64,000 bases of DNA. Origin: Candidatus Nitrosocosmicus franklandus. Lineage in GTDB: Archaea; Thermoproteota; Nitrososphaeria; Nitrososphaerales; Nitrososphaeraceae. Made by a program: the position numbers and the translations under genes. Below the pieces are notes generated by a model. It ran no database searches and had not been told where the DNA came from. It saw nothing but the letters and a program-made list of their open reading frames with translations. Of this stretch, positions 4,762 through 62,746 are shown in pieces (position 1 is the stretch's first letter; each line of letters opens with the position of its first letter). The stretch spans positions 868,001 through 932,000 of the forward strand of contig NZ_LR216287.1 of NCBI RefSeq assembly GCF_900696045.1. Reading direction: 5' to 3'.

Positions 4762-4887
4762 TGCGAAGTGTGGGATTTGAACCTGCGATCCCGCCTTTTG
4801 CCCCCACTTAGCTTACGGCCATGTGTATCATTAGTAAACGAGGGGCCAAATAAACACCACTCTATCTTCGTTAAACACTCCTATCGT
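4762..4887 (-). repeat. Degraded att-like repeat B (tRNA-Gly 3'-end remnant plus flank)
   Basis: On the minus strand, 4762-4793 reads GGGATCGCAGGTTCAAATCC and then CACACTTCGCA. This differs from the 3' end of the intact tRNA-Gly (24862-24936) at only a couple of positions. The flank to 4887 aligns with repeat A. Directly after it, on the plus strand, about 4861-4941 encodes RLDINKIITKRIRPMLEE, a truncated copy of the 43-aa protein at 22332-22463. The repeat therefore carries an integrated-element end, not just tRNA sequence. Confidence 0.7.
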
Positions 4888-5978: not shown

Positions 5979-6141
5979 AAAAGTATGGTCTTGCATCTGA
6001 GCGGCGTGGATAAGATGCAAGACCCCTATGAAATTATCAGTTATTTGATACTGCGATTTTGCGCTTATAAACAAAATTTATCTCCAATCATGTTTAACTA
6101 TGGATACAGGTTAGTGTTGGACAGCCGTACTAATTCACTCA

Positions 6142-18097: not shown

Positions 18098-19066
18098 ATG
18101 TATATTAAAGTATCACTAAAAATAACTATTATTATATTAATGGTGGGGATTTTGGCCGTGCCACCAACGATATTGCAGAGCTCACATGCGCAAGCGAATA
18201 CGGAATTTGAAAATACTATCCTGAATATTCACAACCAAGAGCGAGCTGAAGTTAATGTTCCAGCGCTCTCCTGGAGTAACAATCTTGCCGCCGACGCCCA
18301 GATTTGGGCTAACCATCTGACGACGCTAGGCCTCAAAGCTGGCGATTTGCCGCCTCATGATCCGAGCAATAGTGAGGGCGAGAATCTTTGGATGGGTACC
18401 GCGGGTGCCGATTCTACGGCCGAACAGGTCCAGAGCTGGGTCGCCGAAAAGAATAATTATGTTCCTGGAACCCCTATTCCCGCTGAAACCAATGAAGGAG
18501 ACCTCGTGACCGGTCATTACACACAGATGGTCTGGAGTAGCACTACCGAGGTCGGTTGCGCAACCGCTACTGGTGGTGGTTTAGCCTTTTTGGTGTGTCG
18601 CTACAGCCCACCTGGCAACTTTGTGGGACAGGTGCCGTTTGGCCCCGGTTCAACGGCTTCACTTGCTGACCAAGGTACAGGAACTTCACCAGGGAACACA
18701 TTTGTACCCGCTGACCAAGGTACAGGAACTTCACCAGGGAACACATTTGTACCCGCTGACCAAGGTACAGGAACTTCACCAGGGAACACATTTGTACCTG
18801 CGGAAGAAAATGCAGGCGCCAATAATAACGGGAACGACGACGGAGGAGATAATAACGGGAACGACGACGGAGGAGATAATAACGGGAACGACGACGGAGG
18901 AGATAATAACGGGAACGACGACGGAGGAGATAATAACGGGAACGACGACGGAGGAGATAATAACGGGAACGACGACGGAGGAGATAATAACGGGAACGAC
19001 GACGGAGGAGATAATAACGGGAACGACGACGGAGGAGATAATAACGGGAACGACGACCAAAATTAA
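18098..19066 (+). CDS. Secreted CAP-domain (SCP/PR-1-like) protein with tandem-repeat tail
   Basis: This 322-aa protein starts at ATG 18098 with a signal peptide (hydrophobic residues about 8-26, probable cleavage after SHAQA). Residues about 38-180 are a CAP domain: ILNIHNQERAEVNVPALSWS, GENLWMG, GHYTQMVWSSTTEVGCA and LVCRYSPPGN. Together these carry the family's His/Glu pocket and signature. Three perfect 15-aa repeats follow (unit starting ADQGTGTSPGN), then eight perfect 9-aa Asn/Asp/Gly repeats (NNGNDDGGD) and a partial ninth. The CAP part is visibly more GC-rich than its surroundings, and a bacterial-style hairpin terminator follows. Both suggest acquisition from bacteria. It is probably extracellular; activity is unknown. 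Confidence 0.92.
   Translation: MYIKVSLKITIIILMVGILAVPPTILQSSHAQANTEFENTILNIHNQERAEVNVPALSWSNNLAADAQIWANHLTTLGLKAGDLPPHDPSNSEGENLWMGTAGADSTAEQVQSWVAEKNNYVPGTPIPAETNEGDLVTGHYTQMVWSSTTEVGCATATGGGLAFLVCRYSPPGNFVGQVPFGPGSTASLADQGTGTSPGNTFVPADQGTGTSPGNTFVPADQGTGTSPGNTFVPAEENAGANNNGNDDGGDNNGNDDGGDNNGNDDGGDNNGNDDGGDNNGNDDGGDNNGNDDGGDNNGNDDGGDNNGNDDGGDNNGNDDQN
18666..18800 (+). repeat. Three 45-bp coding tandem repeats
   Basis: Three consecutive units of 45 bp (each containing CAAGGTACAGGAACTTCACC) encode the linker of the CAP protein. They are essentially identical at the DNA level, which implies recent expansion or active homogenisation. Confidence 0.85.
18827..19056 (+). repeat. 27-bp coding tandem repeat array, eight full units plus one partial
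   Basis: The unit (GATAATAACGGGAACGACGA plus CGGAGGA) repeats without visible mismatch and encodes NNGNDDGGD in the CAP protein tail. It is an in-frame minisatellite. Its copy number is expected to vary between strains. Confidence 0.9.
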
Positions 19067-19090
19067 AGAAGGATAAGTAGCCTTCTTTTT
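19065..19090 (+). terminator. Hairpin terminator after the CAP gene
   Basis: The arms AAAGAAGG (19065-19072) and CCTTCTTT (19081-19088) form an 8-bp stem with an 8-base loop running into a T stretch. It directly overlaps the stop codon of the CAP gene. The layout resembles a bacterial intrinsic terminator. Confidence 0.6.
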
Positions 19091-19525
19091 CATTTCAGTT
19101 CTGTACTAGTTGTCTATTATTTAAGGTCAGCAAGCTGTGGATAATTTAGGAAAATTAACTACTGAAAGAGGTAACATCTATGGATTTAGACCACCTTTGA
19201 CTGACAAGGTAGTCAGGTCAATAAGGAGTCGTTTCTTACCTAACTAACCAGACCAATTAAGAAAATGGCATTATTGTAAGTAGTTATCTTTTCTCATCAA
19301 TAGTCACGTCGAATATTTCATGCTATCCCCTATATGGCCTTCAATCACACAGTTAATGTCTGATCCTTCGTCCTAATTTATCGCTACAAGTTTGCTTCAG
19401 GCTTAGATAGTCGTGGCATATGTTTTATGTTTCATTAATATTCTTTACTACATTCTTGATTATCGTCTTGAAAATTATTTCTGTGACTTGGGGATTTGGA
19501 ATTAGACCCGGTTCTTTTATAGATT
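19091..19525. other. Gene-free stretch
   Basis: Nothing recognisable is seen apart from short random frames. Confidence 0.3.
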
Positions 19526-22620: not shown

Positions 22621-23745
22621 TTAATTACCAGAAACTGGATCTCTAGAAATAAATTTGGACATTGCCTTACCATATTGTTTAGTGAGCTTGTCAAGTTCGT
22701 GAACAAGGTAATGTTTTGCCGATATCGACTTGGCTCTACCAGCAAGTACTTCAGCTCCCCTATCTCCCATCTCAGACCTACATAATATATTATAATGGAA
22801 CTTGTGTAAGTCTTTCAACAATACTTTATTATCAGTATGACTCTTTATCATGAGATGAGTTACGTTTCTTTCCGATTTGCCTGCCTTCCCAATACTTTGT
22901 ATTCATTCCAGACCTTTAATGGTATAATAGTAAAGAAAGCGCATTTCTGGCCAACTATTCTATTTAGTACTAAAAAGACATAATTGCCCTTTACCACCAA
23001 ATGAAGTTTATTACAATCACATCCAGATAGTACATCACAGATTGGAGTTTCATGAGCGTATGTCATCTCCTCGCCCCTTAGTCCACTAAATAAGGCAAAA
23101 CGAGTAATCGTCCCTATTTCGCCTTCTAGCTCTAAAACCTTGTAGATCATAGCGTCTATAAATCCATCATCAGCAATCCAGACCCGATCATGAATTCTTA
23201 CATTCTTGTTCACCTCATACCTCTTAATTATCTCCTCAATCAGAATCTTTAACTCGGGATTCTGAAACTTCCTATCATAATATTGCCCGAACTTTCTCAT
23301 AGCGTCGCATATCCACGCCCTATTGTGGCCTGACTCCGAGGCAATGAGTTCGGGCTTGGTGAAGAATATGTCAACAAACCTTTCATAATATCTAACTAGG
23401 TCTCTGGCATGTTTTGTAGTTTTATACTTCTTTAGATATCCGCTAAGCATATCTTCTCTGTCAATATTTCTATAGAAAGTAGGAGTTACTTGACCTGTCA
23501 AGGGGTCAGTTATTCCTTTCTCTCAACCTCTGGATGAGTTTAGTTGCCTGTTCATTGCTAGTATGTTTTGGCCAATTACCATCTATTCAAGCATTTAGGA
23601 ACCCCCCTACGGTCTTGAAACCTTCTTGGTCCAATTTGTAATTTAATGTGTTTAATTTCTCACGTCTAACTCGAGCAGAGAAAATAAGCCAATCCCCACT
23701 AGCTTTCTGTTTCTTTATCTCATTACGGGCAATTGTCTCACTCAA
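22621..23745 (-). pseudogene. Dead tyrosine recombinase (archaeal integrase)
   Basis: Read leftward, the protein starts SETIARNEIKKQKASGDWLI and runs to VGGFLNA, where a TGA (23587-23589) stands in place of probably Trp. It continues IDGNWPKHTSNEQATKLIQR, shifts frame near 23520 into LTGQVTPTFYRN, and runs through a catalytic-domain core (FALFSGLRGEEMTYAHE, with the first Arg). It then shifts again near 22865 into VTHLMIKSH and the C-terminal part (MGDRGAEVLAGRAKSISAKH onward). That part carries the RAKSISAKHY region expected to hold the His/Arg and Tyr residues. One stop and two frameshifts mean it cannot act. It lies next to tRNA-derived repeats and a tRNA gene, as expected for a tRNA-targeting integrase. 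Confidence 0.85.
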
Positions 23746-23802: not shown

Positions 23803-23854
23803 ATGTAAACATAATTACGAGCGCATTTGGGATATGTAAACAATTATGTAAACA
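23803..23854 (+). repeat. ATGTAAACA arm-like repeats, group 1
   Basis: ATGTAAACA occurs exactly at 23803-23811, 23834-23842 and 23846-23854, with AATTACGAGC at 23813-23822. The same two motifs recur at 24662-24692. Short iterated motifs beside a tRNA-derived core, next to an integrase gene, fit arm-type recombinase binding sites. Confidence 0.5.
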
Positions 23855-23881
23855 ATTTGTAAAAATCATGCACGAAGCAAG

Positions 23882-23935
23882 TGTGAAGTACGGGATTTGA
23901 ACCCGCTCGCGTTTGCTAGCCGTAGGCTCGCAAAC
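23882..23935 (-). repeat. Degraded att-like repeat C with hairpin
   Basis: On the minus strand 23882-23905 reads GCGGGTTCAAATCCCGTACT and then TCACA, a T-arm plus acceptor end almost identical to the intact tRNA-Gly. Where the anticodon arm should be there is a longer hairpin at 23911-23935 (GTTTGC and GCAAAC arms, inner AGCC/GGCT, loop GTA). The D-arm and 5' acceptor strand are missing, so it is not a working tRNA. Confidence 0.65.
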
Positions 23936-24148
23936 TAGGCTCGTTACGGGTTCAAAAGATGTCCTAATGTCTGACAGCATATATCTTATTGTGTAAACTT
24001 GATTGTTGTGTTAGCATTCTCGATGTTGATTTGTTTTTGTTAAATATTATTTATGATAGAGGCGAATCAAGCAACTGATCGGAATTTTTCGAAAACAGCT
24101 TTGCAAGCATAATCGTAACACTAAATATCTATATTAAACGTATTAAAA
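23936..24148. other. Gene-free stretch
   Basis: No gene seen. It separates att-like repeat C from the hairpin cluster. Confidence 0.35.
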
Positions 24149-24260
24149 ATTGCACCGGAGGTGAAAAAAGTCGAATAAGACTGAGAACGGCGAATTCCCA
24201 GATTAACCCATCCTCCCCAGGAATCAGGTTAATTATCCCCTATTTTTTCACCTTTGCAAT
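24149..24260. repeat. Long imperfect inverted repeat, candidate structured RNA 1
   Basis: The ends ATTGCA (24149-24154) and TGCAAT (24255-24260) pair. Then, past a small internal loop, AGGTGAAAAAA (24159-24169) pairs perfectly with TTTTTTCACCT (24243-24253). Inside, ATTAACC (24202-24208) pairs with GGTTAAT (24227-24233), closing a small CCT/AGG hairpin. This is a long-range stem enclosing at least one branch, like a small structured RNA or a palindromic mobile remnant. No known RNA family was recognised. Confidence 0.5.
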
Positions 24261-24357
24261 TAATGAATAACGACGAGATAAGTATTGTCATTTATTCATT
24301 GCATATATTATCCACACGATCTTATAAAAACGTTGATCAGATCGATTATTCATTAAT
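24259..24357. repeat. 12-bp perfect inverted repeat
   Basis: ATTAATGAATAA (24259-24270) and TTATTCATTAAT (24346-24357) are exact reverse complements. A partial extra copy, TTATTCATT, is at 24292-24300. A TATA-like CTTATAAAAA lies inside at 24321-24330. Confidence 0.6.
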
Positions 24358-24393
24358 GGAAATATAATTAAACTAATTTCCAAAATCTTAATG

Positions 24394-24423
24394 TTTATAA
24401 ATACGTTTTTGGGTAATTTACCC
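24394..24423 (+). promoter_or_regulatory. TATA box plus operator-like palindrome
   Basis: TTTATAAATA at 24394-24403 is a good archaeal TATA box. The perfect palindrome GGGTAA-T-TTACCC (24411-24423) lies between it and the expected start of transcription near 24427. That position is where archaeal repressors usually bind. The only thing downstream is the hairpin pair below, so this would drive an RNA, not a protein. Confidence 0.5.
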
Positions 24424-24426
24424 AAC

Positions 24427-24540
24427 ATATGTCATAGGAATGGAGTAATACGAAACTCGTCATTTCGTACCATTCCTATGTGAGGCCTAGGCGCGAGGAT
24501 TACTTCTTATCTCGTCGTGGTTTTTTGCGCCTAGGCCTCC
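24427..24540 (+). ncRNA. Candidate structured non-coding RNA with two strong adjacent hairpins
   Basis: Hairpin 1 (24433-24480) has an 11-bp stem CATAGGAATGG/CCATTCCTATG, a 5-base AGTAA bulge, a 7-bp stem TACGAAA/TTTCGTA and the loop CTCGTCA. One base later, hairpin 2 (24482-24539) has a 13-bp perfect stem GAGGCCTAGGCGC/GCGCCTAGGCCTC. It encloses a 6-bp stem CGAG(G)AT/ATCTCG, followed by GTCGTGG and a T6 run. CTCGTC occurs in both. Together with the TATA box at 24394 this looks like a transcribed RNA. Strand and ends are inferred; the alternative is a DNA-level recombination or replication structure. Confidence 0.5.
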
Positions 24541-24602
24541 GCGTAATAATTCATATTGATTCATTAAAATAGAGAAACAATCTATTTCATATCATTAATA
24601 CC

Positions 24603-24621
24603 CCGCCCCCTGCGGGGGCGG
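24603..24621. repeat. Very GC-rich short hairpin
   Basis: CCGCCCCC and GGGGGCGG pair around TGC in otherwise AT-rich DNA. It could act as a terminator-like block for the RNA upstream or as a remnant boundary. Confidence 0.5.
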
Positions 24622-24661
24622 TCAATTGGTTTGGAGAGAAACCATAACCCAAATGTCTACA

Positions 24662-24692
24662 AATTACGAGCATATGTAAACATATGTAAACA
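24662..24692 (+). repeat. ATGTAAACA arm-like repeats, group 2
   Basis: AATTACGAGC (24662-24671) is followed by ATGTAAACA at 24674-24682 and 24684-24692, copying the arrangement at 23803-23854. A further CGTAAACA lies at 24852-24859, just before the tRNA 3' end. Confidence 0.5.
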
Positions 24693-24725
24693 TTCTAAAA
24701 TAATGCAAATACCTAAGGTGAAAAA

Positions 24726-24754
24726 TACGAGCTTCCCAAGCTCGGGATCGCGGG
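24726..24754 (+). repeat. Inverted 29-bp copy of the tRNA-Gly anticodon arm
   Basis: These 29 bases (TACGAGCTTCCCAAGCTCGG and the next nine) equal the anticodon arm and variable region of the tRNA-Gly gene, but on the opposite strand (tRNA counterpart 24882-24910). The two copies face each other across 127 bp. Upstream CCTAAGGT also resembles the end of the tRNA D-arm. Neither acceptor strand is present, so it is a fragment. Confidence 0.8.
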
Positions 24755-24861
24755 CAAGAAAAAGCTAATTGACGAGAAAAACCAACCAAACAAGGAGAAA
24801 ATACGTTCACAGTATTGGTAAAATAGAGTCTATGTATGAGCATTAGAAGCTCGTAAACAAG

Positions 24862-24936
24862 TGCGAAGTGCGGGATTTGAACCCGCGATCCCGAGCTTGG
24901 GAAGCTCGTACCTTAACCAGGCTGGGCCAACTTCGC
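24862..24936 (-). tRNA. tRNA-Gly (anticodon CCC)
   Basis: A complete 75-nt cloverleaf is on the minus strand. The acceptor strands GCGAAGT/ACTTCGC pair over 7 bp with discriminator A. The anticodon stem CGAGC/GCTCG encloses the loop TTCCCAA (anticodon CCC, glycine). The T-arm GCGGG-TTCAAAT-CCCGC is perfect. CCA is not encoded and there is no intron. Degraded copies of its 3' end at 1195, 4762 and 23882 mark it as the integration site of the island to its left. Confidence 0.92.
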
Positions 24937-62077: not shown

Positions 62078-62746
62078 TTGCAGACTAAATTATCTCAATT
62101 AAAATATTCTTTAGTTTTTATGACTTTGTTAGCTAGTTTAACTTCAGTGTCTGTCTTGTCTAGCCATGAGTATATTGTACTTGCTACCAAAAATAACAAT
62201 GATCATTTGGATCAAATACAATCGGGATCACAAAACTCAAAGTGCGAAGCAGGAGAAGATAACAACAATTCATGCAATAATATCAGCATAAGTAGACAAG
62301 GAGGTGCGAGTAATGATAATGATGACAGTGGTAGTGGTAGTGGTAACATAGTACAAGTATCCAAACAAAACTCAAAGTGCGAAGCAGGAGAAGATAACAA
62401 CAATTCATGCAATAATATCAGCATAAGTAGACAAGGAGGTGCGAGTAATGATAATGATGACAGTGGTAGTGGTAGTGGTAACATAGTACAAGTATCCAAA
62501 CAAAACTCAAAGTGCGAAGCAGGAGAAGATAACAACAATTCATGCAATAATATCAGCATAAGTAGACAAGGAGGTGCGAGTAATGATAATGATGACAGTG
62601 GTAGTGGTAGTGGTAACATAGTACAAGTATCCAAACAAAACTCAAAGTGCGAAGCAGGAGAAGATAACAACAATTCATGCAATAATTTTAATATTCAGGA
62701 AATGATCGAAGACAAATTGAGGATGATAAGCGGCAGCAGACCATAA
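62078..62746 (+). CDS. Secreted protein of 45-residue tandem repeats
   Basis: The 222-aa protein begins (TTG 62078, or ATG 62120) with a signal peptide (LKYSLVFMTLLASLTSVSVL, probable cleavage after VLA). It then consists of three perfect 45-residue repeats and a partial fourth. Each contains KCEAGEDNNNSCNNISISRQ and a Gly/Ser/Asp spacer ending NIVQVSK. Two Cys per repeat, ten residues apart, probably form a local disulfide. The C-terminus is helical (IQEMIEDKLRMISGSRP). It is most likely a surface or extracellular protein. Confidence 0.8.
   Translation: MQTKLSQLKYSLVFMTLLASLTSVSVLSSHEYIVLATKNNNDHLDQIQSGSQNSKCEAGEDNNNSCNNISISRQGGASNDNDDSGSGSGNIVQVSKQNSKCEAGEDNNNSCNNISISRQGGASNDNDDSGSGSGNIVQVSKQNSKCEAGEDNNNSCNNISISRQGGASNDNDDSGSGSGNIVQVSKQNSKCEAGEDNNNSCNNFNIQEMIEDKLRMISGSRP
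62231..62686 (+). repeat. 135-bp perfect coding tandem repeats, three full and one partial
   Basis: Units begin at 62231, 62366, 62501 and 62636 (partial, 51 bp). No mismatch is seen between the three full units. They lie in frame inside the secreted protein. Identity at silent positions points to very recent duplication or gene conversion. Confidence 0.95.

Follow-up and report, generated by a model that had tools for sequence, protein, structure and literature searches.

A strong hairpin pair beside tRNA-Gly(CCC) of Candidatus Nitrosocosmicus franklandus as a possible part of a degenerate mobile element

The window analysed here, a stretch of 64,000 nucleotides from the ammonia-oxidising archaeon Candidatus Nitrosocosmicus franklandus, contains two neighbouring hairpins whose location in gene-free DNA between copies of a tRNA end makes them most likely part of a degenerate mobile element. 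The favoured reading, given a probability of about 0.5, interprets the hairpins as DNA acting in cis within a mini-element that lacks an integrase, or within a remnant, inserted at a tRNA-Gly(CCC) integration hot spot. The word CTCGTC would be displayed in the hairpin loops as a site for the recombinase of the element or for an accessory or replication protein, the unit would have been mobile in the past, and with the neighbouring integrase inactivated the hairpins may by now be stranded. A candidate new RNA is thus reassigned to a putative mobile-element feature, and the proposed link between the loop words and an archaeal integrase is testable. The positions of the features are given in Table 1.

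All of the sequence features reported in the first-pass annotation were found where it had placed them, including the GC-rich hairpin at 24603. The two main hairpins are separated by a single base. The Watson-Crick stems of hairpin 1 comprise 11 bp (outer) and 7 bp (inner), in agreement with the 18-bp two-part hairpin described earlier. Hairpin 2 had been described as 13 plus 6 bp; its 13-bp stem is perfect and encloses a 32-nt interior, but the inner stem rests mainly on G-U pairs and is extended in RNA folding, with only approximately 4 pairs added in DNA folding. CTCGTC had been noted in or near both loops and is present in both hairpins, with CTCGT at 24456 and 24511. The region 24424–24625 gave a fold z-score of -8.1 as RNA and -7.9 as DNA, and 0 of 200 shuffles folded as well. 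Hairpins 1 and 2 together rank first among the 120-nt folds of the window once GC content is corrected for, and their fold exceeds that of every 120-nt stretch in 20 congener loci. The strength of the hairpins is far beyond chance.

Table 1. Features of the tRNA-Gly(CCC) locus, in window coordinates.
Feature	Position	Strand	Remarks
Archaeal integrase pseudogene, three frames	22621–23745	-	intact congener homolog matches PF16795
Tandem ATGTAAACA repeats	23834–23854	.	adjoin integrase pseudogene
Second tRNA-Gly 3'-end copy, att-like	23881–23906	-	adjoins integrase; part of 32-nt direct repeat, 91% identical
CGGGTTCAAA	23947–23956	+	joined to 24726–24754 at shared CGGG gives 35-nt perfect tRNA-Gly copy
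Two further stems	24156–24305	+	z -5.0; second has GACGAG loop region complementary to CTCGTC of the hairpins
TATA-like TTTATAAATA	24394–24403	+	core TTTATAAA identical on both strands
Palindrome TTGGGTAATTTACCCAA, 17 nt in full	24409–24425	.	chance frequency
Hairpin 1	24433–24480	+	outer stem CATAGGAATGG/CCATTCCTATG, inner stem TACGAAA/TTTCGTA, loop with CTCGTC
Hairpin 2	24482–24539	+	perfect 13-bp stem GAGGCCTAGGCGC/GCGCCTAGGCCTC; loop holds CTTATCTCGTCGT
GC-rich hairpin CCGCCCCCTGCGGGGGCGG	24603–24621	+	
Tandem ATGTAAACAT repeat	24674–24693	.	resembles integrase-side repeats
Inverted perfect 29-nt tRNA-Gly copy	24726–24754	+	anticodon arm to T stem
tRNA-Gly(CCC), intact	24861–24936	-	

The 13-nt word ACGACGAGATAAG (24270–24282), upstream of the hairpins, is complementary at all 13 positions to the CTTATCTCGTCGT of hairpin 2. 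At the DNA level the two form an inverted repeat of one word, and as RNA they could pair with each other. This complementarity, the stems at 24156–24305 and the att-like tRNA 3'-end copies on the flanks were absent from the first-pass annotation.

The hairpins lie inside a unit of approximately 950 bp (23907–24860) flanked on one side by tRNA-Gly(CCC) and on the other by a duplicate of the tRNA 3' end. The flanks carry a 32-nt direct repeat (23875–23906 and 24855–24886) with 91% identity, corresponding to the direct tRNA 3' repeats at both ends of an element that a tyrosine recombinase has inserted into a tRNA gene, while the unit has no integrase of its own inside it. The largest ORF of the unit is at most 65 aa, in line with the previous statement that no protein frame explains the hairpins, and no remnant of an integrase or of any cassette protein was detected between 23907 and 24860; both results support a mini-element. 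The neighbouring integrase had been called dead and is indeed broken, with an intact 365-aa integrase from a congener (L067:2206–3303) aligning to it in three separate pieces and frames. As the unit has no integrase and its neighbour is a pseudogene, the term "remnant or non-autonomous" applies, not that of an intact element.

Further support for a mini-element comes from sequences in the unit and on its flanks. The segment 23947–24754 has CGGG at either end, and joining the ends yields 35 nt of perfect tRNA-Gly, which would be the expected trace of a once-circular unit that had recombined in a tRNA-like site. The left end (23947–23956) counts against this reading, being only 10 nt and short enough that it could be an inverted half-copy typical of att-like sites. 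The second tRNA 3'-end copy abuts the integrase pseudogene, and in several congeners an integrase lies directly downstream of tRNA-Gly. The sequence that follows this copy is like that behind the real tRNA in integrase-adjacent congeners, for example CTTGCTTCGTGC in locus L032, and because of this resemblance the copy at 23881–23906 probably represents the older 3' end of the tRNA, which the addition of 23907–24860 displaced. The tandem ATGTAAACAT repeat is akin to the GTTTACA repeats flanking integrases in congeners, so that repeats of this type are common to the unit and to integrase-adjacent regions. The two tRNA-Gly 3' copies, the integrase-associated repeats and words and the adjoining pseudogene bear out the suggested tie to an integrated element. 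The tRNA-Gly(CCC) gene and its neighbour gene are conserved across the 14 further genomes of the genus, and the congeners differ behind the tRNA 3' end, several having an adjoining integrase and others single-gene segments.

The CTCGT word is also enriched in the unit, again in support of a mini-element. CTCGT/ACGAG occurs 8 times in 23907–24860, where its frequency in the remainder of the window predicts 0.77 (about 10-fold enrichment), a count that was made post hoc and includes some copies in or near tRNA-derived sequence; CTCGTC occurs 4 times against 0.11 expected. In congeners the frequency of CTCGT reaches 5.5 per kb over the first 324 bp behind those tRNA-Gly genes that have an adjoining integrase, compared to a background of 0.71 per kb over all congener loci analysed, and the word was found 0 times at eight congener tRNA-Gly loci without an adjacent integrase. 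CTCGT is also contained in the anticodon stem of the tRNA (ACGAGC...GCTCG), and the anticodon stem-loop, which can be a core site, matches the core-site layout of archaeal tyrosine recombinases (reviewed in PMC8371274). These distributions are suggestive rather than conclusive, and the CTCGTC of both hairpins probably belongs to the integrase system. Against a mini-element, the words are putative protein sites only and were noticed after the fact; none of the CTCGT words of congeners was seen inside comparable hairpins.

The first-pass annotation had proposed a regulated small RNA, and a new structured RNA, at this position. On that reading an element-borne transcript of two or three stable hairpins would be driven by the TATA-like word at 24394 and controlled by a repressor on the palindrome. 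The strong RNA fold, the sensible spacing of the TATA-like word and the palindrome, and the G-U pairs that lengthen hairpin 2 in its RNA form are consistent with such a transcript, but the fold is equally exceptional as DNA, and the T6 run within hairpin 2 could in itself end archaeal transcription. The sequences named as TATA box and operator are present but occur at background frequency: TATA-like decamers are found in 4 places in the window, and palindromes of the TTGGGTAATTTACCCAA type number 12, compared to 9–16 in simulated sequence. The palindrome also has no close sister site in its own genome, where every other match has 2 mismatches and none has fewer, and an operator regulon was rejected on this basis.

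The absence of a homolog among 70 family genomes leaves the small RNA without comparative support, the hairpins being unconserved as would be expected of element-specific DNA. BLAST of these genomes with the hairpins gave, besides the query itself, only short weak matches, and a single-sequence covariance model gave no homolog under stricter filters, so that the homologs with compensatory changes that define a conserved structured RNA family were not found. Over these genomes and over 21 loci, such a model recovered the query and a weak match on its own opposite strand. Pattern searches gave no match for hairpin 2 in the genome contigs or for either hairpin in viral contigs, and distant BLAST of phage and plasmid collections identified no relative of the hairpins. 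Rfam 15 at the gathering threshold found only the tRNA and nothing at the hairpins. The hairpins belong to no Rfam family and the label "conserved structured RNA" is inapplicable. Taken with the background frequency of the TATA-like word and palindrome, these results do not uphold the proposed RNA, which is considered rather unlikely. Guide RNAs were rejected by eye, the box C/D type for want of C/D motifs and the H/ACA type since no ACA box stands behind either stem.

The hairpins might instead be debris without function, a pair of strong inverted repeats that a rearrangement or a decayed insertion left behind, at a locus that is rich in inverted tRNA fragments and holds a dead integrase; congeners also have ORF-less cassettes. 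This explanation is judged improbable, as no other copy of the hairpin sequence was found in the genome itself and, by general reasoning, long perfect stems decay fast in the absence of selection or a recent origin.

A genus-wide search for the tRNA-Gly 3' end, followed by reading of the loci, revealed tandem copies of this end in congeners, with up to seven within 26 kb in one genome and many spaced 0.6–2.5 kb apart. Such arrays occur behind tRNA-Gly(CCC) and elsewhere (loci L056–L075, e.g. L057, L062:247–5391, L060:2049–4239 and L064:2210–4297); in the window, copies of the 3' end are located at 4762, 23882 and 24862. Of the 43 tRNA-Gly-derived sites, 20 are bordered upstream by the inverted half-copy ATTTGAAC (compared to 4.7% of random places), 19 downstream by ATTTGAACC (compared to 1.9%) and 22 are adjoined by GGGATC (compared to 0.5%). 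Most of the short segments contain one main gene, encoding alpha/beta hydrolases, SnoaL-like, ABM-domain, collagen-like or ferredoxin-like proteins, among others. Several of the products start with an apparent signal peptide when inspected by eye, and similar cassettes with approximately 90% protein identity are shared between different species. Tandem cassettes between conserved palindromic sites, as in integrons, are therefore present in congeners; the arrays resemble integron cassette arrays and the sites are candidate recombination sites. It would be conceivable, if hardly probable, that an integron-like platform is built on tRNA-Gly in ammonia-oxidising archaea and that the unit is one of its cassettes, devoid of genes, with the hairpins as recombination or regulatory sites whose folded loops carry CTCGTC, the word of the integrase.

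Like integrons (attC/IntI), the congener arrays have tandem, mostly single-gene cassettes and imperfect palindromic sites at one locus; unlike integrons, their sites are tRNA-derived and the tRNA-Gly-adjacent integrase matches the archaeal phage integrase family PF16795. Integrons have been reported in some archaea since 2019. Among the papers searched there was no account of tRNA-Gly cassette arrays, and the tandem, mostly single-gene cassettes at a single tRNA in ammonia oxidisers that are brought to light here merit separate study. In the 2019 thaumarchaeal survey, mobile integrons were among the element classes undetected in archaea (PMC6563490). The cryptic integrated elements of Thaumarchaeota described there share with this locus a tyrosine integrase, tRNA genes and tRNA-derived direct repeats, and tandem integration is known for them, but they measure 2.6–98 kb and contain genes, while the present unit is approximately 0.95 kb, gene-free and has strong hairpins (Krupovic et al., 2019; PMC6563490). 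The tRNA-targeting archaeal tyrosine recombinases of the SSV1, pNOB8 and pT26-2 types likewise target the tRNA 3' end, and loss of the integrase after integration has been described (PMC8371274); in contrast to those types, the att-like copies at this locus span chiefly the part from the T arm to the 3' end, and the integrase of this group only modestly matches PF16795.

The hairpins could also be initiator or primase sites in the replication signal of a small element that was once circular (approximately 0.8 kb, 23947–24754), or of a larger one of which a stub remains. An ORF-less att-bounded segment dense in hairpins would suit this reading, as would the uninterrupted tRNA-Gly sequence that its ends form when joined into a circle. 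It is very unlikely, however, given that no replication gene was identified alongside and that the searches of phage, plasmid and viral collections found no similar element.

Other repeats and hairpins were observed in the window and in congeners. The hairpin GTCTTGCAT...ATGCAAGAC at 5987–6024 has a partly conserved loop, GCGTGGA, and is present in 5 copies in its own genome and in 9 of 70 family genomes, with 0 matches for the reversed control. Its core is also found in the same genome at C1:436290–436325, and at L062:7818–7862 and L063:491–531; it is a candidate for a repeated structured element or for the end of an insertion sequence. A perfect 13-bp hairpin with a 3-nt loop (CACATGCCGGCCA-GGA-TGGCCGGCATGTG) lies at 1936–1964 within a 188-aa ORF. 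A strong fold in the congener locus L068:130–290, unrelated to the hairpins of the window, arises from repeats of TGTCAGGGT together with inverted units resembling ACCCTTGACA. Predicted secreted proteins with tandem coding repeats are encoded at 18621–19093 and 62212–62746 (GNDDGGDNN and QNSKCEAGEDNNNSCNN).
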